A stretch of 64,000 bases of DNA from an uncultured Gammaproteobacteria bacterium (GTDB lineage Bacteria > Pseudomonadota > Gammaproteobacteria > JAADHQ01). Each line of letters begins with the position of its first letter. Position 1 is the first letter of the stretch. The notes under the pieces are model-generated. The model searched no databases. It saw nothing but the letters and a program-made list of their open reading frames with translations, and was not told the origin of the DNA. This document shows, piece by piece, positions 46,264-58,879 of the stretch. Location of the stretch: contig CAMYJO010000008.1 of NCBI GenBank assembly GCA_947258755.1, positions 1 through 64,000 on the forward strand, given 5' to 3'. The translations under genes and the position numbers were made by a program.

Positions 46264-46662
46264 TTAAGTTTGTCGGCTGGTATTCCGTAGTTGCATGCTG
46301 ATCAGTACAAATAGACCTGAAATTATATAATTGATTATCTTGAATCCGTCGAGTGGAGTTGCTACCGCATGACCATCTGCAATGGCTTCGATCGCACGAT
46401 AGTACGGTAGCATGACACTCAGTGTCAGTAACAGCATGTTAATACCGCCCTCGATTATGCCAAGAATTGGCTCCAGGCTTTTCCATTTCCACATCAGTCC
46501 TGCAACGCACATACAGAACAGATAATAAATTATTTTCCAAACTGGATAATTTTCTAAAGAAGCAATGCGTATGTTCCAGCCGAACAGCTCGTCGACAAGT
46601 AAAAATATAGGTGTTGTCAGATAAAATCCAAGCAGTAGTTGTTGTCGACTCAACATAGTCAT
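46264..46662 (-). CDS. Small membrane protein of unknown function
   Basis: A 132-residue protein with about four hydrophobic helices (LLLGFYLTTPIFLLVDELFG, IIYYLFCMCVAGLMW, GINMLLLTLSVMLPYY, INYIISGLFVLISMQL). No signature motif. It is convergent with the DsrE-like gene, 5 bp away. I do not recognise the family; function unknown. Confidence 0.65.
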   Translation of the reverse strand: MTMLSRQQLLLGFYLTTPIFLLVDELFGWNIRIASLENYPVWKIIYYLFCMCVAGLMWKWKSLEPILGIIEGGINMLLLTLSVMLPYYRAIEAIADGHAVATPLDGFKIINYIISGLFVLISMQLRNTSRQT

Positions 46663-47272
46663 TTGGCCTTATTTGGGCTGTGCAGGTATAGAGCTGCTGT
46701 GGCATAGGCAATATATCATTAGGATGAGTCTGTTAGTCTGTTTTTTTGTTGATAATGGCCTATAATAATTGGCATTGTTGTAATGGCTTAGAAGTTTGTA
46801 GGCAGTGGTTTAGTATAACTCAGCTGTTTGTAGTCGTTCGTACCTGTACAAGTCGAGCTAGAAAAATACAGCATCAATGCCATTTCCCGCCAAGGTGAAG
46901 TGGTAAACATGGATTAATACACTATATGGAATTAGTAACATCTCTATCTACCCCAATAATATATTCACACTTTAATACCATGCCATATGTATTGTTATAG
47001 GTCGGTATAAATGTATTTTAAGGTTTACTGGTGTAAATCTTAACTTTATATAATGAATTGCTAAAGTTTTGAAGAAAGCTGACGCTCATGTGCATGCTAG
47101 AGATGTAACAAATCTCTTACAATTAAGGGCTTGTGTGCTATTAGCAAGTTGCTAGACTGTTTCGAGATGGAGAGTTTTTGCTGTTAGAAGGTAGTGCTGA
47201 AGGCACGGCTAGGCATTCGCTATAAAAATAACTGGTTTAATATGACCCATAAAATCTGGAATGAAGGCTTAT
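46663..47272. other. Long upstream region of the giant repeat-protein gene
   Basis: About 610 bp without a supported gene. It contains a sigma-28-like box (47062-47088, described separately). No cyclic di-GMP riboswitch or other known leader RNA was recognised. Confidence 0.5.
47062..47088 (+). promoter_or_regulatory. Possible sigma-28-like promoter for the giant gene
   Basis: TAAAGTTT (47062-47069, perfect -35), 11-nt spacer, GACGCTCA (47081-47088, 5 of 8 matches to GCCGATAA). The spacing is exact but the -10 is weak. It lies 185 bp upstream of ATG 47273. Confidence 0.3.
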
Positions 47273-50200
47273 ATGAATAATAACAAATGGATCCACAGTT
47301 TTTTTATTCTGTTTTTCTACATGATCATCGGAATTCAAACTGTCCACGCAGAAGGCAGCTTTCAGATTGGACTAAATCAAACGCTTGAGGAACATGCGAC
47401 CACCGGCGTTCGTATGAATGTGGATATTCAAACGGCCGGTGAGGTTATCAATGTGCATCTATGTGGTGATGCAAACAATGATAATGTTCGCGTACGCATA
47501 TATGACCCTTCTGATAATCGCGTCGTCAATACCACTCTGAGCAGTGGTAACGTGAACTGTAACGACGCGTTCACTGCAGTGCTGACCAATCCCGTGCAGT
47601 ACGATACCACCAGTGTAGGCGCCGGCACCTATTCGATTGAGCTGGACAATATGGATGGCAGTGTGCTTGAGCGTTTCGACGTCACGGTAACACCCAATAC
47701 CTCCACCAACCCAGATCCAACAGCCCTGGGTGGTAGACTGTGGTCAAATAAATGGTCTTTTAACAATGGCACTTATGACCTGGCCGATGCAACAGATGCA
47801 GATTTTTATCCGCTTGTTCCCGGTGGTAGAGCCAATACAAACTATGTCTGGAAGCTCGATCTGAACCGATTTTCGGGTTTTCAATATAACATTATAGCCA
47901 ATGATTTTGGCGTCAATGCACCACGTTCAGGCTATAGTACCGCTAAAAGTGGATTTTCGGCCACACCCAAGTTCCCAATTTATGTTTCCTATCCTGCGAA
48001 TGCGAATCCACGTCCCACAGACCCGCCGGTTATCAATTCATTCCGTTTTATCGATGACGCAAACCAGGACTATGCTATTTCACCTGCAGTGAGCACAGGT
48101 ACACAGGATAGCGGTAATTTTGAATTTAACTCTGACACTGACGGCACCTATGAAATAGTTATCGATACCAATTCTGACGGTATCTATGATGGTAGCGATG
48201 TTCGTTTACTCGGTGTTGCGACGTCGGGTCTTAATACGGTTGCTTGGGATGGAAAAACAGCGACTGGTGCGACTGTCGCAGACGGTACCTACGGAGTGAA
48301 ATTGCAATTGCGACTCGGTGAATATCACTTTATAGCCGACGATGCCGAGACCAGTGGTGGCGGCACCGATAATGGTCTAACCATTTATCTCGCCAACAGT
48401 AATGTTAGTCAAACGGATACATTGGTGTACTGGGATGATGCAACCTTTCTGAGTGCGCAAGGTGGTACAACCACACTGCCTGGCGGCGCTTTGTCATCAA
48501 CTGCGACGGCCAAGCATACCTGGGGTAACTTCACCTCGGGTGGCATCGGTAATGAAACATTTATTGACACCTATGTATATGGACTGAGTTCTACGGCAAC
48601 TGCTGTGGTTGCGATCAGCCCTTCGGATGCATTGCAAACCGGTGTGGACGGTACTATCGCTGTTTCGCCAAGTAAGGGCGCACCGGGGGATACATTAACA
48701 GCAACGGTAACTGATGCAGATCTAAATCTGCTGGCAACGGTTGCTGAGTCAGTTGTCGTTCGCTTGGTAAACAACCGAAGTTCTGAAATTGAGCAGTTGA
48801 CCTTAACCGAAACTGGCGTAAATACAGGTATATTTACCAGCACTATCAGTACAGTGTCGAATGCTACGGCAGGCACTAATAATGATGGGTCGATTAATTC
48901 TGCTGTCGGTGATGTTATTACTTTCACCTATCAGGACCTGTTGGATTCTGTTGGCGCCAGTGTCGCCAGGACTGCATTGCACTCCCAGGAAGTGGCCGCT
49001 GCAGGGACGAGTACGATTTCTACATCACCCGCCAGTATTACCGCTGATGGTAGCAGTACCAGTACCGTTACCGTGCAACTTAAAGATTCGGGTGGCACCA
49101 ATCTGACTGCAGGTGGTGATACAGTCGTATTGTCCACTACCGCAGGTGCTTTAGGTAGTGTGACCGATAATAATGATGGTACCTATACAGCGACCTTAAC
49201 CAGTTCAACCGCAGTTGAAACAGCGACCATCAGTGGCACCTTGAATGGCGCTGGCAATCCCATCACCGATACGGCAACAGTTTCTTTTACAGCTGATGCT
49301 GCATCAACGGCAACCAGTACAATCACAGCAGCGCCGACCAGTATTACCGCAAATGGCACCAGCACCAGTACCGTCACTGTGCAGTTGAAGGATGCCAATG
49401 GTAATGACCTGAGCGCGGGTGGTGATACGGTGGTATTGAGTACCACGGCAGGATCTCTGGGCAGTGTTACGGATAATAATGACGGAACATATTCTGCTAC
49501 GTTGACCAGCCCGGCAAGCATCGCCGTTGCGACGATTAGTGGTACCCTGAACGGTAGCGGCAATACCATAACTGATACCGCCACAGTTGCATTTATAGCA
49601 GGCCCGGCGGCCACGAGCACCAGCACCCTGACGACATCACCGACCAGTATTACTGCCGATGGCAGCAGTACCAGTACGGTAACGGTGCAATTGAAGGATG
49701 CCAGTGGTAACAACCTGAGTAGCGGTGGCGATACAGTCGTACTATCTACAACGGCCGGTACCCTGGGTGCCGTGACCGACAACAATGACGGTACCTACAC
49801 AGCGACTCTGACCAGTTCTACCACGGCCGGCACAGCGACCATAAGTGGTACGCTGAACGGTAGTGGCAATGCGATTGTCGATACCGCGACCGTCAACTTC
49901 ACAGCGGGTGTGGCTGCGACTGCGATCAGTACCATTACCGCATCACCCACCAGCATTACTGCCGATGGCGCCAGTACCAGCAGCGTGACAGTCCAGTTGA
50001 AGGATACGAATGGCAATGATCTCAGTACGGGTGGCGACACGGTCGTACTATCTACCACGGCGGGTACCCTGGGTGCGGTGACCGATAACAACGACGGTAC
50101 CTATACAGCGACATTGACCAGTTCAACCACAGTTGAAACGGCGACGATCAGTGGTACGCTGAACGGTGCCGGTAACGCGATTGTCGATACCGCGACGGTT

Positions 50201-53200
50201 GCCTTTACTGCGTCCACAGCTTCGACGGCAACCAGCACGATCACGGCGACACCCGCTAGTATTTCGGCCGATGGCAGCAGCACCAGTACCGTGACGGTCC
50301 AATTGAAGGATGCCAACGGTAATGATCTGAGCAGCGGTGGCGACGCCGTCGTATTGAGTACCACAGCCGGCACGTTGGGTGCAGTCACCGATAACAATGA
50401 TGGCACCTATACGGCGACCTTGACCAGCTCAACCACGGTTGAAACGGCGACCATCAGTGGCACCCTGAACGGTTCCGGTAACGCGATTGTTGATACCGCG
50501 ACGGTCGCCTTTACCGCCGGTGCGGCCTCCACGGCAACCAGCACGCTGACGGCAGCACCGACCGACATCACGGCCGACGGCAGTTCGACCAGTACGATCA
50601 CCGTACAGTTGAAGGATGCCAATGGTAATGACCTGACGACAGGTGGCGACACTGTGGTATTGAGTACAACCACGGGTACGCTGGGTGCGGTCACTGATAA
50701 CAATGACGGTACCTACACGGCGACCCTGACCAGCCCGACCACAGCCGGCACGGCGACCATCAGTGGCACCTTGAACGGTGCCGGTAACGCGATTGTTGAT
50801 ACCGCGACGGTCACCTTCACCGCCGGCGCGGCCTCTACGGCAACCAGCACGCTGACGGCAGCACCGACCGACATCACGGCTGACGGCAGTTCGACCAGTA
50901 CGATCACCGTGCAGTTGAAGGATGCCAACGGTAATGACCTGACGACAGGTGGCGACACTGTGGTCTTGAGTACAACCACGGGTACGCTGGGTGCAGTCAC
51001 CGATAACAATGATGGTACCTATACGGCGACCTTGATTAGTTCAACCACAGCCGGTACGGCGACCATCAGCGGTACGTTGAATGGCAGTGGTAATGCGATT
51101 GTCGATACCGCGACGGTGACATTCTCACAAGGCTCGGCTTCAACCGCGACCAGTACCATTACAGCGTCCCCGACCAGCATCGCAGCTGATGGCAGCAGCA
51201 CCAGTACCGTGACGGTACAGCTGAAGGATGCCAGTGGTAATGATATTACTACCGGTGGTGACACCGTCGTATTGAGTAGCACAGACGGTACCCTGGGTGC
51301 CGTGACCGATAACAACGACGGCACTTACACCGCAACCTTGACCAGCTCGGCCACAGTCGGTACGGCGACCATCAGCGGTACGTTGAATGGCAGTGGCAAT
51401 GCGATTGTCGATACCGCGACGGTGGCATTTACAGCGGGTGCGGCATCAACAGCAACCAGTACACTGAGTGCATCACCTGCGGATATTACTGCAGATGGTA
51501 GTAGCACCAGTACGATTACGGTGCAATTGAAGGATGCCAGTGGCAACAACCTGAGCACGGGTGGCGACACGGTTGTGTTAAGCACCACGGCCGGTACCCT
51601 GGGTGCCGTGACCGATAACAATGACGGCACCTACACGGCGACGTTGACCAGTTCGACCACCGTTGAGACGGCCACGATCAGTGGTACATTAAATGGCAGT
51701 GGCAATACCATTACCGATACCGCAGCCGTTACATTCTCCGCACTAGGTACCGCCTCGACTGCGACCAGTACCTTAACGGCGTCGCCGACCAGCATTGCGG
51801 CCGATGGTGTTAGCACCAGTACGGTAACGGTACAGCTCAAGGATGCCAGTGGTAATAACTTGAGCACCGGCGGTGATACAGTCGTACTGTCAACTACGGC
51901 CGGTACCCTGGGTGCCGTGACCGATAACAACGACGGTACTTACACCGTGACCTTGACCAGCTCAACCACAGCCGGTACGGCGACCATCAACGGTACGTTG
52001 AATGGCAGTGGTAATGCGATTGTCGATACCGCGACGGTAGCATTTACAGCGGGTGTGGCGTCAACAGCGACCAGTACATTGACGGCCGCTCCTAGCAGTA
52101 TTGAAGCTGATGGCAGTAGCACCAGTACCGTGACTGTGCAGTTGAAGGACGCGAACGGTAATGATCTGACGTCGGGTGGTGACACAGTTGTATTATCTAC
52201 CACAGCGGGTACCTTGGGTGCGGTCACTGATAACAATGACGGTACCTACACGGCGACCTTGACCAGCTCGACTACGGTTGAGACGGCCACGATCAGTGCT
52301 ACGCTGAATGGCAGTGGAAATACGATTGTCGATACTGCGACCGTAGCGTTCACGATAGGTGTGGCTTCAACGGCGACCAGTACGTTGAGCGCATCACCAG
52401 CCGACATTACCGCTGACGGAAGTAGCGCCAGCACGATTACGGTGCAACTAAAAGATGCTGGCGGTAACAACCTGAGCACGGGTGGTGACACGGTTGTGTT
52501 GAGCACGACAGCCGGTACCCTTGGTGCGGTGACCGACAATAACGATGGTAGCTACACGGCAACGTTGACCAGCTCGACCACGGTCGAGACGGCCACGATC
52601 AGCGGTACTTTGAATGGTGCCGGTAATGCGATTGTCGATACCGCCACCGTTACATTTTCTGCATTAGGTACCCCATCGATCGCGACCAGTACACTGACAG
52701 CGTCACCGACCAGTATTGCAGCCGATGGTGTCAGTACCAGCACGGTTACCGTACAGTTGAAGGATGCCAGTGGTAATGATATTACCACGGGTGGTGACAC
52801 CGTCGTCTTGAGTACCACAAACGGTACCCTGGGTGCGGTGACCGACAACAACGACGGTAGCTACAGTGCGACCCTGACCAGTTCAAATGCAGCAGGAGCG
52901 GCAATCATCAGTGGTACGCTGAATGGTAATACGATTACTGAAACAGAGACGGTGTTATTTACACCAGGTGCTGCATCGACAGCGACTAGTACCTTAACAG
53001 CAGCACCGACCAGTATTGCAGCGGATGGCAGCAGCACCAGCACGGTCACCGTACAGCTGAAGGATGCCAACGGTAATGACCTGACCACGGGTGGCGACAC
53101 CGTCGTATTGAGCACAACCGCTGGCACCCTGGGTGTGGTGACCGACAACAACGACGGTACCTACACGGCAACGTTGACCAGCTCGACCACGGTCGAGACA

Positions 53201-55933
53201 GCGACCATTAGTGGCACTCTGAACGGTGCCGGTAATGCGATTGTCGATACCGCCACGGTGGCGTTCGCGATTGGAGCAGCTTCAACGGCAACCAGTACAT
53301 TAACGGCAGTGCCGGCCAGCATTGTCGCCGATGGCAGCAGCACCAGCACGGTTACCGTGCAGTTGAAGGATGCCAGTGGCAATGACCTGAGCACGGGTGG
53401 TGATACGGTCGTGTTAAGCACAACCGCGGGCACTCTCAGTGCAGTCACCGACAACAACGATGGTACCTATACAGCGACGTTGACCAGCTCGACAACGGTT
53501 GAAACGGCGACCATTAGTGGCACCTTGAACGGCGCCGGTAATGCCATTGCCGCTACTGCGACAGTCGACTTCACGGCCGACGCAGCATCCATCGCGACTA
53601 GTACGTTAACCGCATCACCGACCAATATCACTGCCGATGGCAGTGCTACCAGTGCCATCACGGTACAACTGAAGGATGCCAATGGTAATGATCTGAGCAC
53701 GGGTGGCGATACAGTCGTATTGAATACCACTGCCGGTACCATCGGTAGTGTGACCGATAACAACGACGGCACCTACTCAGCTACGCTGACCAGTTCAACC
53801 ATCGTTGAAACGGCCACAATCAGTGGTACCTTGAACGGCGCCGGTAACACCATTACCGATACCGCCAGCGTCAACTTTACTGCCCTGGCAGATGCTGATG
53901 GCGATGGTATACCCGATGTCGATGAAGGCACCGGTGATACCGATGGCGATGGTATCCCTGACTTCCAGGATCCGGACAGTGATAACGACGGCATCCCGGA
54001 TGTAGATGAGACTAACATCGATGCCGATAATGACGGTGTGCCTAACTACATCGACCTCGATAGTGATAACGATGGCGTCACCGATGCCGTCGAAGGTATG
54101 ACTGATACCGACAACGATGGTACCGAAGATTTCCTTGATCGGGATACCGACAACGACGGTATCCCCGATATCACCGAAGCGGGTGGCACCGACATCGATG
54201 GTAATGGCCAGGTGGACAACCTGACCGATGCCAATAGCGATGGTCTGGACGACACAATCGCCACCAACCCACTGCCGGATACCGATACCGATAATGATGG
54301 TACCCCGGATCGCCAGCAACTGGATAGCGATAGCGATGGTATCAATGACCTGGTCGAGGCGGGCGGTCCTGACGCCAATAATGATGGTCTGGTCGACGGC
54401 TATACCGATGGCGACAGCGATGGTCTGGATGACACCATCGCGGCCACACCATTACCGGTCGATGATACCGACCAGGATGGCGTACCGAATTACCGTGACC
54501 TGGATAGTGATAACGATGGTCTACTGGATGTAGACGAAGGCACAGTCGATACCGATAACGATGGTGTGCCGGATTACCTGGATCTTGACAGCGACAACGA
54601 CGGTATCCCGGATATCACTGAAGCTGGCGGTACCGATACGGATGGCGATGGCCAGATCGATAACCCGGTCGATAGCAATGGCGACGGTCAGGACGATACT
54701 ATCGCCACTACACCATTAGCGGATACCGACAGTGATAACGACTCGATCCCTGATCGCCGTGAACTGGATAGTGATAATGATGGCCTGTTGGATCTGGTCG
54801 AAGCAGGTGGTGTGGATGGCAACAACGATGGCCTCGTGGATGGCTTCACTGATGTTGATGGCAACGGCTATGATGATACCTTGTCAGCGACACCGCTGAG
54901 TCCGCCGGATAGCGACAACGACGGTATCCCGGACTTCCAGGACAATGATGACCTCGACAATGACGGCATCCCGGATACAGCGGACCTGGATACCGACAAC
55001 GACGGCATCCCGGACTCGGTCGAAGGCACGAATGACTCCGACAATGACGGTATTCCGGATTCACGCGAACTGGACAGCGACAATGATGGTCTGAACGACA
55101 TCATCGAAGCCGGTGGTACCGATGCCAATAACGACGGAATGGTCGACAACCCAGTGGATAACAACAATGATGGTCTGGATGACAGCATTGCCGCGACACC
55201 ATTACCGGATACCGACAGCGATAATGATGGTCTGCAGGATCGTCGTGAACTAGACAGTGACAACGACGGCATCCCGGATGCGATTGAAGGACTGACCGAC
55301 ACCGATGGTGATGGTGTTCCGGATTATCGTGACCTGGACAGCGACAACGATGGTATCCCTGACGCTGATGAAGGCAACGTTGATAGCGACAATGACGGCG
55401 TTCCTGACTATCAGGATTTGGACAGCGATAATGACGGTATCGCGGATATCATCGAAGCCGGTGGTACCGACGCCGATGGTGATGGCAAGGTCGATAACCC
55501 GGTCGATAATAATGGCGATGGCCTGGACGATACGATTGCCGCTAACCCATTAGCGGACCAGGACAGCGATAATGACGGTACCCCGGATCGTCAGGACCTG
55601 GACAGTGACAACGATGGTTTCTGGGATCTGGAAGAGGCGGGTGGCATCGATGCTAATGGTGACGGTATCGTCGATAACTTCACCGATAACGATGGCGATG
55701 GTCGTGATGATGCCACTGCAGCAAGTCCACTGACGCCACCGGACGCTGATAATAATGGTATCCCGGACTTCCAGCAGTCTGCTGGCAAGATCGAAACAGG
55801 ACTGATTGGTATTGGCGGCGGTTGCACAGCCTCGAATCATACAGGTGTGGATCCGGTGTTACCGCTGTTCATGCTGACGTCATTCCTGTATATGTTGACA
55901 CGAATAAGAAAGGCCAGGAAAAACGATGAATAA
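47273..55933 (+). CDS. Giant secreted protein: 16 Ig-like repeats, Ca-binding repeats, C-terminal sorting tail
   Basis: 2,886 residues. Start ATG 47273 ([11 protein letters not shown]) is preceded by AAGG at optimal spacing; ATG 47261 is in frame but less likely. Signal peptide to about 30 (TVHAEG). The N-terminal region to about 575 includes a FlgD-like segment ([20 protein letters not shown]). Sixteen invasin-like Ig domains of ~102 residues (about 577-2205; [20 protein letters not shown] and [19 protein letters not shown]). Then ~630 residues of thrombospondin type 3-like Asp repeats (DSDNDGIPD). The tail has GGGC (2848-2851), a hydrophobic helix ([14 protein letters not shown]) and basic RIRKARK: a CTERM-type sorting signal. 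Likely a surface adhesin or matrix protein. The stop overlaps the OmpA-family start by 8 bp. Confidence 0.93.
49003..53887 (+). repeat. 16 tandem ~306-bp coding repeats
   Basis: Coding repeats of about 306 bp, each giving one Ig-like domain, with spacing kept by the VTDNNDG segment. Units 6 and 7 (about 50525-51125) are almost identical in DNA, and others differ mainly at third positions. Two units carry 1-residue longer linkers (SALGT) and one lacks a few codons ([10 protein letters not shown]). Long minus-strand open frames every 306 bp are by-products. Confidence 0.93.
53890..55785 (+). repeat. Asp-rich calcium-binding repeat region
   Basis: About 630 codons made of DxDxDGxxD-type units ([21 protein letters not shown]) with interspersed [11 protein letters not shown] blocks. 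They resemble thrombospondin type 3 and EF-hand-like calcium loops. The DNA repeats are less regular than the Ig-like part. Confidence 0.85.
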
Positions 55934-57023
55934 AAAAATTAATAATATAGCTTTAGTTCTAGCCTGTGGCCTGTCTGTGCCAGTAGTGGCGGATACTGGT
56001 TTTAAAAACGGTTGGTATGCCGGTATCGGTGCAGGTATATCGCACCTGGAGCCGGATACCAACACGACCGGCTTTAGCGTAGATGATGACAGTAGCTCCG
56101 GTTTTAAACTATATCTCGGTTACGACTGGGATGAAAAGTGGGGTATCGAGGGTTATGTGGTTGATCCAGGTGAGGCCAGTTTAGCGCCCACGGGTACGGT
56201 CGAATACACGGACTTTGGCGTCAGTGGTTTGTATCACTTTTTTAACAACCGCGGTGAAGCCGCCAGAGATAGCCGTACCCATCTTTCCTTGTTCGGTAAA
56301 GTCGGTCTCGGTTTTATGAAAAATAGCAGCGATGTACCGTACGACCGTCTTAATGATGCCCATATACTATTGGGGGCAGGGTTGGAATATGGCTTCTCCA
56401 ATGGCTTTGCCGTGCGTGCCGAGGCGGAGCTGTTCGATAAAGACTCGCAGTTTTATTCGCTCAGTATATTAAAGCGTTTTGGCAAGAGTGCGAAGAAAGC
56501 GGCGCCGGTTGTCGCTGCAGTGCCTGCGGTTGTGCCTAAGCCAGTTGCCACGACGGCTCCTGCTCCAGTTCCGGTCGTGGTTGTGGATCAGGACAGTGAC
56601 GGTGACGGCGTGATGGACTCGGTTGACTTATGTCTTGACAGTAAGCCGGGTGCTCGGGTTGGTGTTCGCGGATGCAAGATTGCCGATGTCATCGTACTTG
56701 AGGGTGTTCAATTCAAAACCAGTTCAGCAAACCTGAAATCGGTTTCAATCGACGTGCTCAATGAAGCGGCGGCTACATTGAATCGCTATCCGGACATGAA
56801 AGTAGAAGTGGCCGGGCATACCGATAGTCGAGGTGCGGCTTCATTCAACCAACATCTGTCGGAAAAACGTGCGCAATCAGTACGTGATTATCTGATCTCA
56901 AAAGGCGTGTCGGCAGGCAGGCTAAGCGCGAAGGGCTATGGCTCCGCTCAGCCAATCGCGGACAATGCCACACGCGAAGGCCGTGCGACTAATCGTCGAG
57001 TGGAATTGCATATACAGAAGTAA
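55926..57023 (+). CDS. OmpA-family outer-membrane protein
   Basis: A 365-residue protein with a signal peptide ([15 protein letters not shown]), an N-terminal eight-stranded-type beta-barrel (about 25-185; [26 protein letters not shown]), an Ala/Pro/Val-rich linker with one Asp-rich calcium motif ([14 protein letters not shown]), and a C-terminal OmpA peptidoglycan-binding domain ([32 protein letters not shown]). The start overlaps the giant gene's stop, so the two are translated together. It may anchor or display the giant protein; that is inference. Confidence 0.92.
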
Positions 57024-57041
57024 AACAAGCTTTACTTGTAA

Positions 57042-57075
57042 CCCGTTACATCCAGATGTGTAAGGATGTAGCGGG
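57042..57075 (+). other. Hairpin after the OmpA-family gene
   Basis: CCCGTTACATCC (57042-57053) pairs with GGATGTAGCGGG (57064-57075) with one G-U pair. There is no T-run, so it is more likely an mRNA stabiliser or processing signal than a terminator. The protease gene follows. Confidence 0.55.
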
Positions 57076-57235
57076 GCACTTCCTAATAAATCACATCCCT
57101 GACAACCTTAATCAGAGTGAGCAGTCTGAATTTCACCTGCCACTTGCTGTGATAGATATCTTTTCTGATGTACCATGTTGTGATGTAATCGCGTAGTAGT
57201 GTTGGCATGTTCACATGAATTCAGGAAATTCGCGA

Positions 57236-57682
57236 ATGAGACAGACCAGGTTTTACAAAAGCACGAATTTTTGGCTTTTTCTACTGGTGGCCATACCTTT
57301 CTGGTTATGTCTGATCTATGTTTTCAATGTCGAAACCAATTTCCGCTGGTTTCGTGAACATTTGTTGAGCTACTTGTATCTGGCCTTGCTGCTTCCTGTT
57401 CTTGAAGAAATAGTGTTCCGTGGTTTCATTCAGGAACAACTTTCTAAGGTCTTTGATAATCGCAGACTAGGTATGCTGAGTTATGCAAACATAGCGACCA
57501 GTGTCATTTTCTGTGCATTGCATTTTTTCTATCATCACCCTGTATGGGCAGCGTTGGTTTTTATTCCATCCCTGATATTTGGTTATTGCAAGGATCAGTA
57601 TAAAACCTTGATAGCGCCGATTATTTTACATGTTTTTTATAATGCCGGTTATTTCCTGATCTTTGGGGTAGGCATAGAATAG
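57236..57682 (+). CDS. CPBP-family glutamic intramembrane protease (MrtJ-like)
   Basis: A 148-residue membrane protease; ATG 57236 has AGGA 9 bp upstream, ATG 57215 has none. About four hydrophobic helices. The CPBP motifs are complete: EEIVFR (Glu57-Glu58...Arg62), FCALH (His96) and HVFYN (His132, Asn136). The protein is short and gene-neighbour to a protein with a GGGC/helix/basic tail, as in the JDVT-CTERM/MrtJ pairs I recall from sorting-system catalogues. It probably cleaves the giant protein's tail. A general CAAX-type protease is the alternative. Confidence 0.85.
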   Translation: MRQTRFYKSTNFWLFLLVAIPFWLCLIYVFNVETNFRWFREHLLSYLYLALLLPVLEEIVFRGFIQEQLSKVFDNRRLGMLSYANIATSVIFCALHFFYHHPVWAALVFIPSLIFGYCKDQYKTLIAPIILHVFYNAGYFLIFGVGIE

Positions 57683-57688
57683 TGTAAA

Positions 57689-58879
57689 TTATATCCTTTC
57701 AGCCAGTATGCTATGTATTTCGGCATCACTCAACACGATGGGGTTGGTTTTCATGCTACTGCCGCGACTGTTGGCAACTATACGATCAAAATCTGCTTGC
57801 TGAACACCAAAGCTACCAAGCCGTTTTAACTGCATGTCTGTTGTCCATTTATCTAGTAGTGACAAGAGATTAATATAGGCATCATCCCGTTCTTTGAATT
57901 TTCGGTTACAGAGTATGGTTGCCAGGCGCGCGTATTTCTCCAGTGCCGGGCTATCGGGTTCGCGCTGTTGCATGGCTTTAATATTGACACGCGTGGCAGT
58001 ACTAACGAGGGTGCCGCAGACATCACCATGCGGGATAGGGAAAAAGGCGCCGAGAGGTGATGCCAGCCCATGCACCGAGCCCAGCCCGGTTTGGGCGAGA
58101 TTAATGCCGGACAGCAGTGAGGCATAGGCCATCGATGCGCGTGCCTGTTGTTGGTCGCCACTTTTGTGGTACCAGGCCGGTAAGCCGTCACGACAGGCGC
58201 GCAGTCCGCTGATGGCGAGTGCATCGGTGATGGCATTGGCCTTGAGTGACACAAAGGATTCCATTAATTGGGTCAGTGCGTCCATGCCATTGGCCGCAAT
58301 CAGATCTGCCGGGCAAGTCGTCAATAGATCCGGATCAACAAGCGCATATTCCGCCACCAGTTGTTCATCACGAAATGATTTTTTGAAACCATCTTGGCCT
58401 TGCATGCTGAGTACCGAATTTTTTGTCGCCTCGCTACCTGTGCCGGCTGTCGTTGGTACAGCGATGAAGGGAACTGCAGGACCAGGGTAGGTTATCTCTG
58501 GTCCAACACCCTCAAGAAAGTCCATCACTGAATGCTTAATGCGCAGTAATCCGGCGATGGCCTTGGCGGCATCAAGCACGCTGCCGCCGCCAAGGCCGAT
58601 GACCACATCGATGCTCTGATTGCGGTAACGATCGACCATTGCGTCAATGATGGCAGGTGATGGCTCTTGAGTAATCCTGACCTGGAAACTGTCTATCTGC
58701 ACATGACCTAGCCAAGTTTGTATTTGCGGCCATTGCGCTGTTTTCTCAATAGAACCGCTGCCAGTGACCAACAAGATACGGTTGCCATAATGTTGTGCCA
58801 ATTCTGGTAAGCGGCCGAGTGCGCCACTGCCGAATTCTATTCGTGGTAGCCGGGCAATTGAAAAAGGGTTTATGTACAT
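57689..58879 (-). CDS. Iron-containing alcohol dehydrogenase
   Basis: A 396-residue group III alcohol dehydrogenase. NAD-binding GGGSVLDAAKAIA and TTAGTGSEATKNSV, with metal-ligand histidines in GSVHGLASPLGAFFPIPHGD and the acidic ligand in NGMDALTQLMESFVS. The substrate is not predictable. It follows the ABM-domain gene on the same strand by 30 bp; both are likely in one unit. Confidence 0.93.
   Translation of the reverse strand: MYINPFSIARLPRIEFGSGALGRLPELAQHYGNRILLVTGSGSIEKTAQWPQIQTWLGHVQIDSFQVRITQEPSPAIIDAMVDRYRNQSIDVVIGLGGGSVLDAAKAIAGLLRIKHSVMDFLEGVGPEITYPGPAVPFIAVPTTAGTGSEATKNSVLSMQGQDGFKKSFRDEQLVAEYALVDPDLLTTCPADLIAANGMDALTQLMESFVSLKANAITDALAISGLRACRDGLPAWYHKSGDQQQARASMAYASLLSGINLAQTGLGSVHGLASPLGAFFPIPHGDVCGTLVSTATRVNIKAMQQREPDSPALEKYARLATILCNRKFKERDDAYINLLSLLDKWTTDMQLKRLGSFGVQQADFDRIVANSRGSSMKTNPIVLSDAEIHSILAERI

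Follow-up and report, generated by a model that had tools for sequence, protein, structure and literature searches.

Organization of the Locus

The window analyzed here, a stretch of 64,000 nucleotides from an uncultured gammaproteobacterium (contig CAMYJO010000008.1), carries three forward-strand genes that encode a giant exported surface protein (47261..55933), an OmpA-family partner (55926..57023), and the glutamic intramembrane protease MrtJ (57215..57682). The giant, the OmpA gene, and mrtJ form one cassette, present or absent together, which probably builds a cell-surface adhesin and belongs to a wider family of surface proteins paired with barrel-OmpA proteins. In the congener G003, the left neighbor of the cassette (46264-46662 in the window) and its right neighbor, an iron-containing alcohol dehydrogenase gene (57689-58879), lie adjacent on one contig. 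Exactly the three cassette genes are missing from this empty site, and the flanking genes are the same on both sides except for a small ABM gene. Genome G002 contains the full cassette, with the OmpA gene and mrtJ at the same place as in the window and a tail gene before them, and profile searches of the G001 and G003 genomes returned no MrtJ, tail, or barrel match. The empty site fits gain and loss of the cassette equally.

The giant comprises 2890 residues from its first ATG and 2886 residues from ATG 47273, the likelier start because AAGG sits just 5' of it. A signal peptide, recognized by eye, and an N-terminal part of ~550 residues are followed by an Ig-like stalk, a DxDxDG region, and a C-terminal tail. 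The stalk (48998..53845, ends approximate) is composed of 16 Ig-like repeats of the Big_1/Invasin_D3 type with a period of 102 residues, as delineated by 16 repeat anchors and by 16 matching stretches each for Pfam families PF09134 and PF02369. The 16 repeats are very alike; the G002 copy is broken by N, and the repeat number may be assembly-dependent. The DxDxDG region (53873..55705, ends approximate) contains 31 copies of its motif within residues 2211-2809 and, by eye, resembles thrombospondin type 3 repeats of the calcium-binding type. Overall, the giant is probably sticky, an adhesin-like surface protein. It has only three cysteines (residues 68, 100, and 2855 in the 2890-residue numbering), of which the last is the sole cysteine within the final 2,790 residues.

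This cysteine lies in the C-terminal sorting tail (55772..55930), delimited by the match to model NF033191 and by an alignment of OmpA-coupled tails. The tail consists of GGGC, a hydrophobic helix, and a basic RIRKARK end; its Cys, encoded at 55823-55825, is residue 2851 when counted from ATG 47273. From that start, the original prediction of a 2,886-residue exported protein with this ending is confirmed. The tail matches the JDVT-CTERM model NF033191 with 28.6 bits when scanned as a tail and 29.2 bits in the genome search (cut-off 27). JDVT-CTERM is the only model that it matches at E <= 0.1, a threshold at which the GlyGly-CTERM model TIGR03501 gives no match, and the Cys preceding the helix and basic end, which JDVT-CTERM requires, is present. 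Across eight aligned OmpA-coupled tails, the pattern T-G-L-x-G...G-G-C and a later D are invariant. Neither a second JDVT tail (tail-model and tail-profile searches) nor a second MrtJ was found in the window's genome (3.2 Mb, 49 contigs).

The ATG of the OmpA-family gene overlaps the stop codon of the giant by 8 nt (ATGAATAA); an overlap, of no stated length, was part of the original prediction. The 365-residue product contains a signal peptide (by eye), an eight-stranded β-barrel (56010..56480; DSSP strands 29-41 to 174-185 of the predicted model, supported by the family alignment), and a C-terminal OmpA domain (56712..56996; PF00691, residues 263-357). PF13505, PF01389, and PF00691 all score over their cut-offs, the predicted model has eight strands, and it has PDB fold matches to OmpA. 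The pTM of the model is low (0.48), perhaps because the relative position of the two domains is uncertain. Two more specific assignments were rejected: the TraB model is matched with 113 bits against a cut-off of 700, over the C-terminal part only, and the model for PdsO of the dedicated sortase system (TIGR03789) with 92.1 bits against 152.2. The partner may function like TraB without being classed as TraB. In a plasmid search, the matches to this protein were partial and confined to its C-terminal third.

With its Big_1/Invasin_D3 stalk and a barrel encoded next to it, the giant might be viewed as a C-terminally anchored relative of the inverse autotransporters, with the OmpA barrel taking over translocation from the N-terminal barrel that the giant lacks. 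This explanation is very improbable. The Pfam scan of the window proteins found no barrel family in the giant, and an assignment of the giant itself as an inverse autotransporter was rejected for want of an N-terminal outer-membrane barrel on its chain. The partner is, in the model, an eight-stranded OmpA-type barrel, a type too narrow for the passage of a protein chain, and the type II secretin GspD is present in the genome.

The third gene encodes a protease of 155 residues or, from the alternative start ATG 57236 with AGGAAA upstream, of 148 residues; the latter is probably the start used. The gap to the OmpA gene is accordingly 191 or 212 bp, not the 160 bp originally given, and the 148-residue CPBP protease with complete motifs that had been proposed is recovered from ATG 57236. 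The catalytic motifs (57404..57643) are EExxxR (57404-57421; E64, E65, R69), FxxxH (57509-57523; F99, H103), and HxxxN (57629-57643; H139, N143), and each of these residues is kept by 65 to 67 of the 67 rows in the alignment, the window included. The protease scores 104.7 bits against the MrtJ model NF033192 (105.9 in the genome search; cut-off 75) and 65.1 bits against the CPBP family PF02517 (cut-off 22.4); its matches to other myxosortase models lie below their respective cut-offs. The assignment of tail and protease to JDVT-CTERM and MrtJ in the original prediction is thus borne out by the curated models. The predicted MrtJ structure (mean pLDDT 92.7) resembles the CAAX protease Rce1 (4cad; Z 9.4, rmsd 3.3, 134 residues aligned; next row Z 3.6), in a comparison for which caution is advised for helical folds under Z of about 13. 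Foldseek with the same model gave nothing at E <= 0.001 and 14 matches at E <= 10, Rce1 not among them, and the MrtJ sequence profile found no solved structure. Promoters and terminators near the cluster did not exceed shuffled sequences (13 versus 13.1 and 4 versus 8.6).

Distribution and Gene Order of mrtJ

MrtJ scores over its cut-off in 52 of 369 genomes of the class, at 53 places. All of these were read, namely the window and 52 loci, without counting a second, partial match in G070 (63.7 bits); in G354, mrtJ is present in two almost identical copies. An OmpA-family gene lies directly before mrtJ in at least 12 of the 52 genomes, from seven family groups (G000, which contains the window, G002, G213, G313, G259, G147, G079, G307, G318, G103, G066, and G181), a lower bound in that several contigs begin close to mrtJ. 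By a rough estimate that assumes twenty OmpA genes per 3,000, chance would place 0.3-0.4 such neighbors across the 52 genomes. In eight of the 12, a Cys-tail gene directly precedes the OmpA gene. In G103 and G181, the tail and barrel are at the end of one contig and the OmpA domain and mrtJ at the end of another, which are likely the halves of one split cluster. In G259 and G147, the tail proteins are encoded elsewhere in the genome, and the gene before the OmpA gene is one that we take to be hemB-like. OmpA-linked MrtJ may or may not be a single clade: the linkage changes six times on the best tree, with one change forced. The OmpA form of the mrtJ locus is a minority, yet recurrent. The survey thereby finds OmpA and mrtJ side by side in these 12 genomes, with the complete order of tail, OmpA gene, and protease of the original prediction in eight, and leaves 40 in which no OmpA gene was seen beside mrtJ.

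The number of JDVT matches per MrtJ genome ranges from 0 to 7 (E <= 0.05), with at least one in 47 of 52 and matches over the cut-off in 39 of 52. The mrtJ loci L020, L022-L024, L073, L082, and L090 share neighbor genes with one another and have no adjoining tail protein, and mrtJ thus often stands apart from the genes for its targets. Nor is the relationship always one-to-one: the window's genome has one tail found, and the relative G147 combines seven JDVT matches with an mrtJ that has no adjacent tail protein, a case of the kind that the original prediction had itself named as refuting. Loci L069, L081, L077, and L079 (G259, G147, and G354) similarly show mrtJ with no adjoining tail protein, whether or not an OmpA gene is present; in L069, L081, and L079, mrtJ follows the presumably hemB-like gene, which was not seen in L077, where the contig begins near mrtJ. 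MrtJ-like proteins also occur outside the beta- and gammaproteobacteria, in Nitrospira (L031, L032), Thermodesulfovibrionales (L033), and on a Sulfurovum mangrovi plasmid (L271). GGGC-type tails are near the MrtJ-like gene in L032 and L033, and the annotated mrtJ of the plasmid is located behind an S8 peptidase and Ig-like pieces.

The Barrel-Tail Family and the Association of Cys with MrtJ

A profile of ten linked barrels matches in 50 of the 369 genomes (E <= 1e-8), and a profile of eight tails in 43 (E <= 1e-3). All barrel places of at least 70 bits were fetched, together with one weaker place at 65 bits (G133; a fused frame with no Cys, in a genome with no MrtJ). In our own search, 83 places reach 70 bits, comprising a first set of 78 and five more, all five with no tail neighbor. 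Of the 83, 17 have a tail with Cys before the barrel, 42 have a tail without Cys, and 24 have no recognizable tail neighbor. The tails, sorted by eye, mostly carry a TGLxGxG-like signature across the class, loose in some no-Cys tails such as TDLEGGVGGG. The OmpA-coupled surface proteins whose domains were tested (the window's giant, L078, L085, and the fused L201) have Ig-like or SdrD_B domains, and six JDVT proteins from two-gene loci comprise two subtilases, one metallopeptidase, and three with no telling domain. In this small sample, adhesin-like stalks seem to be a mark of the OmpA form.

The two tail forms differ in their association with MrtJ. All 17 barrel-linked Cys tails are in MrtJ genomes, and 37 of the 42 no-Cys tails are outside them (17/0 versus 5/37, Fisher p 9e-11). 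The association persists when the eight sequences that seeded the profiles are removed (9/0 versus 5/37, p 7e-7) and when genomes are counted (15/0 versus 2/17, p 1.5e-7). It is also visible within genera: G077 has MrtJ and the Cys form and G204 has neither, and G191 contrasts in the same manner with G053 and G295. In G077, G265, G191, and G147, mrtJ and the Cys-tail gene are on separate contigs, and the link between Cys and MrtJ is therefore more than one of neighborhood. A renewed search of the 17 genomes with neither MrtJ nor a Cys form (E <= 1e-4) found no protein over the MrtJ cut-off. At E <= 0.1, JDVT-CTERM is matched by each of the 17 barrel-linked Cys tails, MYXO also by two of them, and GlyGly-CTERM by none; of the 42 no-Cys segments, 12 match GlyGly-CTERM, and two MYXO models match four each.

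Several observations weigh against this reading of the tails. The statistics ignore descent: the Cys label requires six changes on the best tree, two of them forced, and only two supported independent pairs are available, which agree in most pairings and are too few for a tree-based test. Two of the 17 no-Cys genomes encode MrtJ-like proteins below the cut-off (G366, 54.9 bits; G083, 42.5 bits). The JDVT model is still matched by 3 of 42 no-Cys tails (E <= 0.1), and the entire 2890-residue giant scanned against NF033191 gives 22.3 bits, below the cut-off of 27. The 24 of 83 barrel places lacking a recognizable tail neighbor belong here as well; one of them, L100, forms the second half of the pair in G181. 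Finally, Cys tails unlinked to a barrel are present in G085, G337, and G128, none of which has MrtJ over the cut-off. G085 has a 59-bit MrtJ-like protein and the G337 genome is 75% complete, whereas G128, 98% complete, has no MrtJ-like match at E <= 1e-4. In all, the tail profile matched in six genomes that have no MrtJ above its cut-off, these three among them; the matches in G202 and G204 are barrel-linked tails without Cys, and that in G120 is not a tail. The rule of Cys with MrtJ thus holds for the barrel-linked tails of this sample and not for every Cys tail. In G128, the Cys tail (GGGGGCSVSQDGRFDPLW...) terminates a short open frame (L272:916-1365).

A different enzyme is suggested for the no-Cys form. 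Rhombosortase scores over its cut-off in all 22 genomes with no-Cys places, in 14 of the 15 Cys genomes, among them that of the window, and in 125 of the 369 genomes overall; it fails to separate the tail forms because nearly all Cys genomes also have one. The rhombosortase of the window's genome is at G000:C27:38012-38458 (113 bits), and this genome may contain a second C-terminal sorting system beside MrtJ. Its presence raises the alternative that this rhombosortase handles the tail of the giant, or that the tail simply anchors the protein in the membrane, and that MrtJ acts on something else. GlyGly-CTERM-like tails in 12 of the 42 no-Cys relatives and the three unlinked Cys tails in genomes without MrtJ over the cut-off would fit such a scheme. 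We judge it improbable: the 17 barrel-linked Cys tails match JDVT-CTERM and never GlyGly-CTERM, they are confined to MrtJ genomes even when mrtJ is on another contig, and mrtJ is part of the cassette that G003 lacks as a whole.

Fused Frames

In 27 of the 59 tail-bearing pairs, the barrel and the surface protein are encoded in a single open frame. The state, fused or split, changes 14 times on the best tree and at least nine times on supported branches. The first 78 barrel places yield 28 fused frames, one of which, L245, has no tail. A common pattern, in which two helices flank two or more Arg/Lys residues and an A-x-A-type site lies between the second helix and the barrel, is present in 24 of the 28 and missing in L205, L209, L234, and L245; helices and sites were assigned with a simple hydropathy window and a regular expression, with no shuffled control and no trained predictor. 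In the window, the same hairpin elements are split between two genes by the 8-nt overlap. Among the 26 fused frames in which two helices were found, the loop between them has no ATG in 19 and no ATG, GTG, or TTG in 8, such that internal starts could explain the fused frames in some cases but not in all. The 24 frames with the common pattern look as would a polyprotein that is cut twice, and the Cys-type fusions L201, L203, L206, and L208 would need a MrtJ cut inside a longer chain. The fused no-Cys surface protein L205:4024-7176 matches XopAE and XopAC models in its N-terminal part, with scores far short of the cut-offs (65 of 600 bits and 56 of 450), probably through shared leucine-rich repeats only.

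We give an even chance to a broader proposal, in which the adhesin and its barrel-OmpA anchor are an obligate pair that shuttles between overlapping genes and a polyprotein. In the fused form, the basic loop would double as the cytoplasmic end of the tail and as n-region for an internal signal peptide. One arm of the hairpin would be cut by a sorting protease, namely MrtJ where the tail has Cys and rhombosortase where it is of the glycine type, and the other arm by signal peptidase. Two outer-membrane proteins would be released 1:1, with the sorting enzyme exchangeable and the pair constant.

The fusions also bear on whether the OmpA gene belongs functionally to the cassette. The JDVT/MrtJ pair could be real and the OmpA gene a mere operon neighbor with no joint function. 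No OmpA gene was seen beside mrtJ in 40 of 52 MrtJ genomes, some with contigs that end just before mrtJ, nor at 14 of 15 loci from a single-protein search of named genomes (the exception is L019), so the pair can work without OmpA; moreover, 191-212 bp separate the OmpA gene from mrtJ. These points favor the mere-neighbor reading, and the first two also count against the explanation favored below. Nevertheless, a mere neighbor is unlikely, given that several families have overlapping or abutting genes for the surface protein and the OmpA protein, that 27 of 59 pairs are fused in one frame with at least nine changes of state, that OmpA-coupled proteins have a tail signature in common, and that TraA/TraB offer a precedent for adhesin-OmpA coupling. 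A partnership between the giant and the OmpA barrel is supported by the recurrent gene overlap, the repeated fusions, and the empty site.

Proposed Mechanism

In the explanation that we favor and consider probable, the signal peptide would export the giant, and the tail helix would hold it in the inner membrane. MrtJ would then cut beside the tail Cys, which was probably lipidated beforehand by an enzyme encoded elsewhere, as in the myxosortase model. A type II secretion system could move the product to the surface, where the eight-stranded barrel-OmpA protein, as the giant's outer-membrane partner, would tie it to the cell wall in a TraB-like manner. This scheme is modeled on MrtX/TraA (PMC11980579) and TraB (PMC3325183, PMC6626042). 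Cleavage near the Cys, lipidation, type II export, and contact between the giant and the barrel are proposed by analogy, and the fact that cleavage, lipidation, and partner contact are read from sequence counts against the explanation. Of 36 genomes, 33 have GspD over its cut-off, G000 among them; the match is unspecific because G001 and G003, which have no cassette, also have GspD. "Self-contained," the original description of the system, is too strong: the cassette contains no lipidating enzyme, passage through the outer membrane would depend on a type II system encoded elsewhere, and the genome also has a rhombosortase. In the wider family, surface-protein and barrel-OmpA pairs occur as overlapping genes, as neighbors, or as one fused chain; of the two tail forms, the Cys form would be served by MrtJ and the glycine-rich form with no Cys perhaps by rhombosortase.

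Comparison with Known Systems

The JDVT/MrtJ pairing is already known, as is the OmpA coupling of a Cys-tailed adhesin in myxobacteria. In the original prediction, this coupling was the new element; the coupling is real but not wholly new, with precedents in traA/traB (PMC3325183) and MXAN_5598 (PMC11980579). A literature search with Haft 2024 outside its coverage found no three-gene JDVT cassette, shared TGLxGxG signature, or repeated polyprotein-like fusions, no swap of tail flavor together with protease within one adhesin-barrel family, no OmpA partners of JDVT or GlyGly proteins, and no such polyproteins other than MXAN_5598. Tail swapping among homologues has been reported for other protein families (PMC3237569). 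With the cassette, JDVT/MrtJ, a computed sorting system, becomes a movable and testable three-gene unit. The occurrence of the same adhesin-barrel pair with Cys alongside MrtJ and without Cys where MrtJ is absent provides natural experiments on recognition by the sorting enzyme. From the fused frames, one would expect a bacterial polyprotein in which both arms of a membrane hairpin are cleaved. An OmpA-type partner of C-terminally sorted adhesins, known from TraAB, is suggested to be widespread in the window's class.

Similar to the JDVT-CTERM/MrtJ system (NF033191/NF033192), the window has a protease and a tail that match the curated models, a single target clustered with its protease, and an invariant Cys. 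That system is described as a two-gene unit (PMC11980579), whereas the window has an OmpA-barrel gene between the two and TGLxGx before the Cys. TraA/TraB and MrtX of Myxococcus xanthus likewise combine a Cys-tailed adhesin, an overlapping downstream gene for a barrel and OmpA domain, and a CPBP protease; traA and traB overlap by four bases (PMC3325183), and TraB is required for the clustering of TraA as an adhesin (PMC6626042). The differences are that the window tail is JDVT rather than MYXO, that mrtX lies outside the traAB operon, and that the partner matches the TraB model only C-terminally. MXAN_5598, a fusion of adhesin, MYXO-CTERM, barrel, and OmpA (PMC11980579), arranges its parts in the same order as the fused frames of the window's class, but is one case from Myxococcota, as compared with 28 fused frames (27 with a tail) of both tail flavors and with switching between fused and split states.

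The GlyGly-CTERM/rhombosortase system may serve homologous pairs in genomes that lack MrtJ; its protease is unrelated, its tail has no Cys, and the window tail fails its model. The inverse autotransporters intimin and invasin have Big_1/Invasin_D3 Ig repeats and an N-terminal barrel. The Ig-repeat stalk of the giant is reminiscent of theirs, but the giant has no N-terminal barrel and would be anchored at its C terminus.

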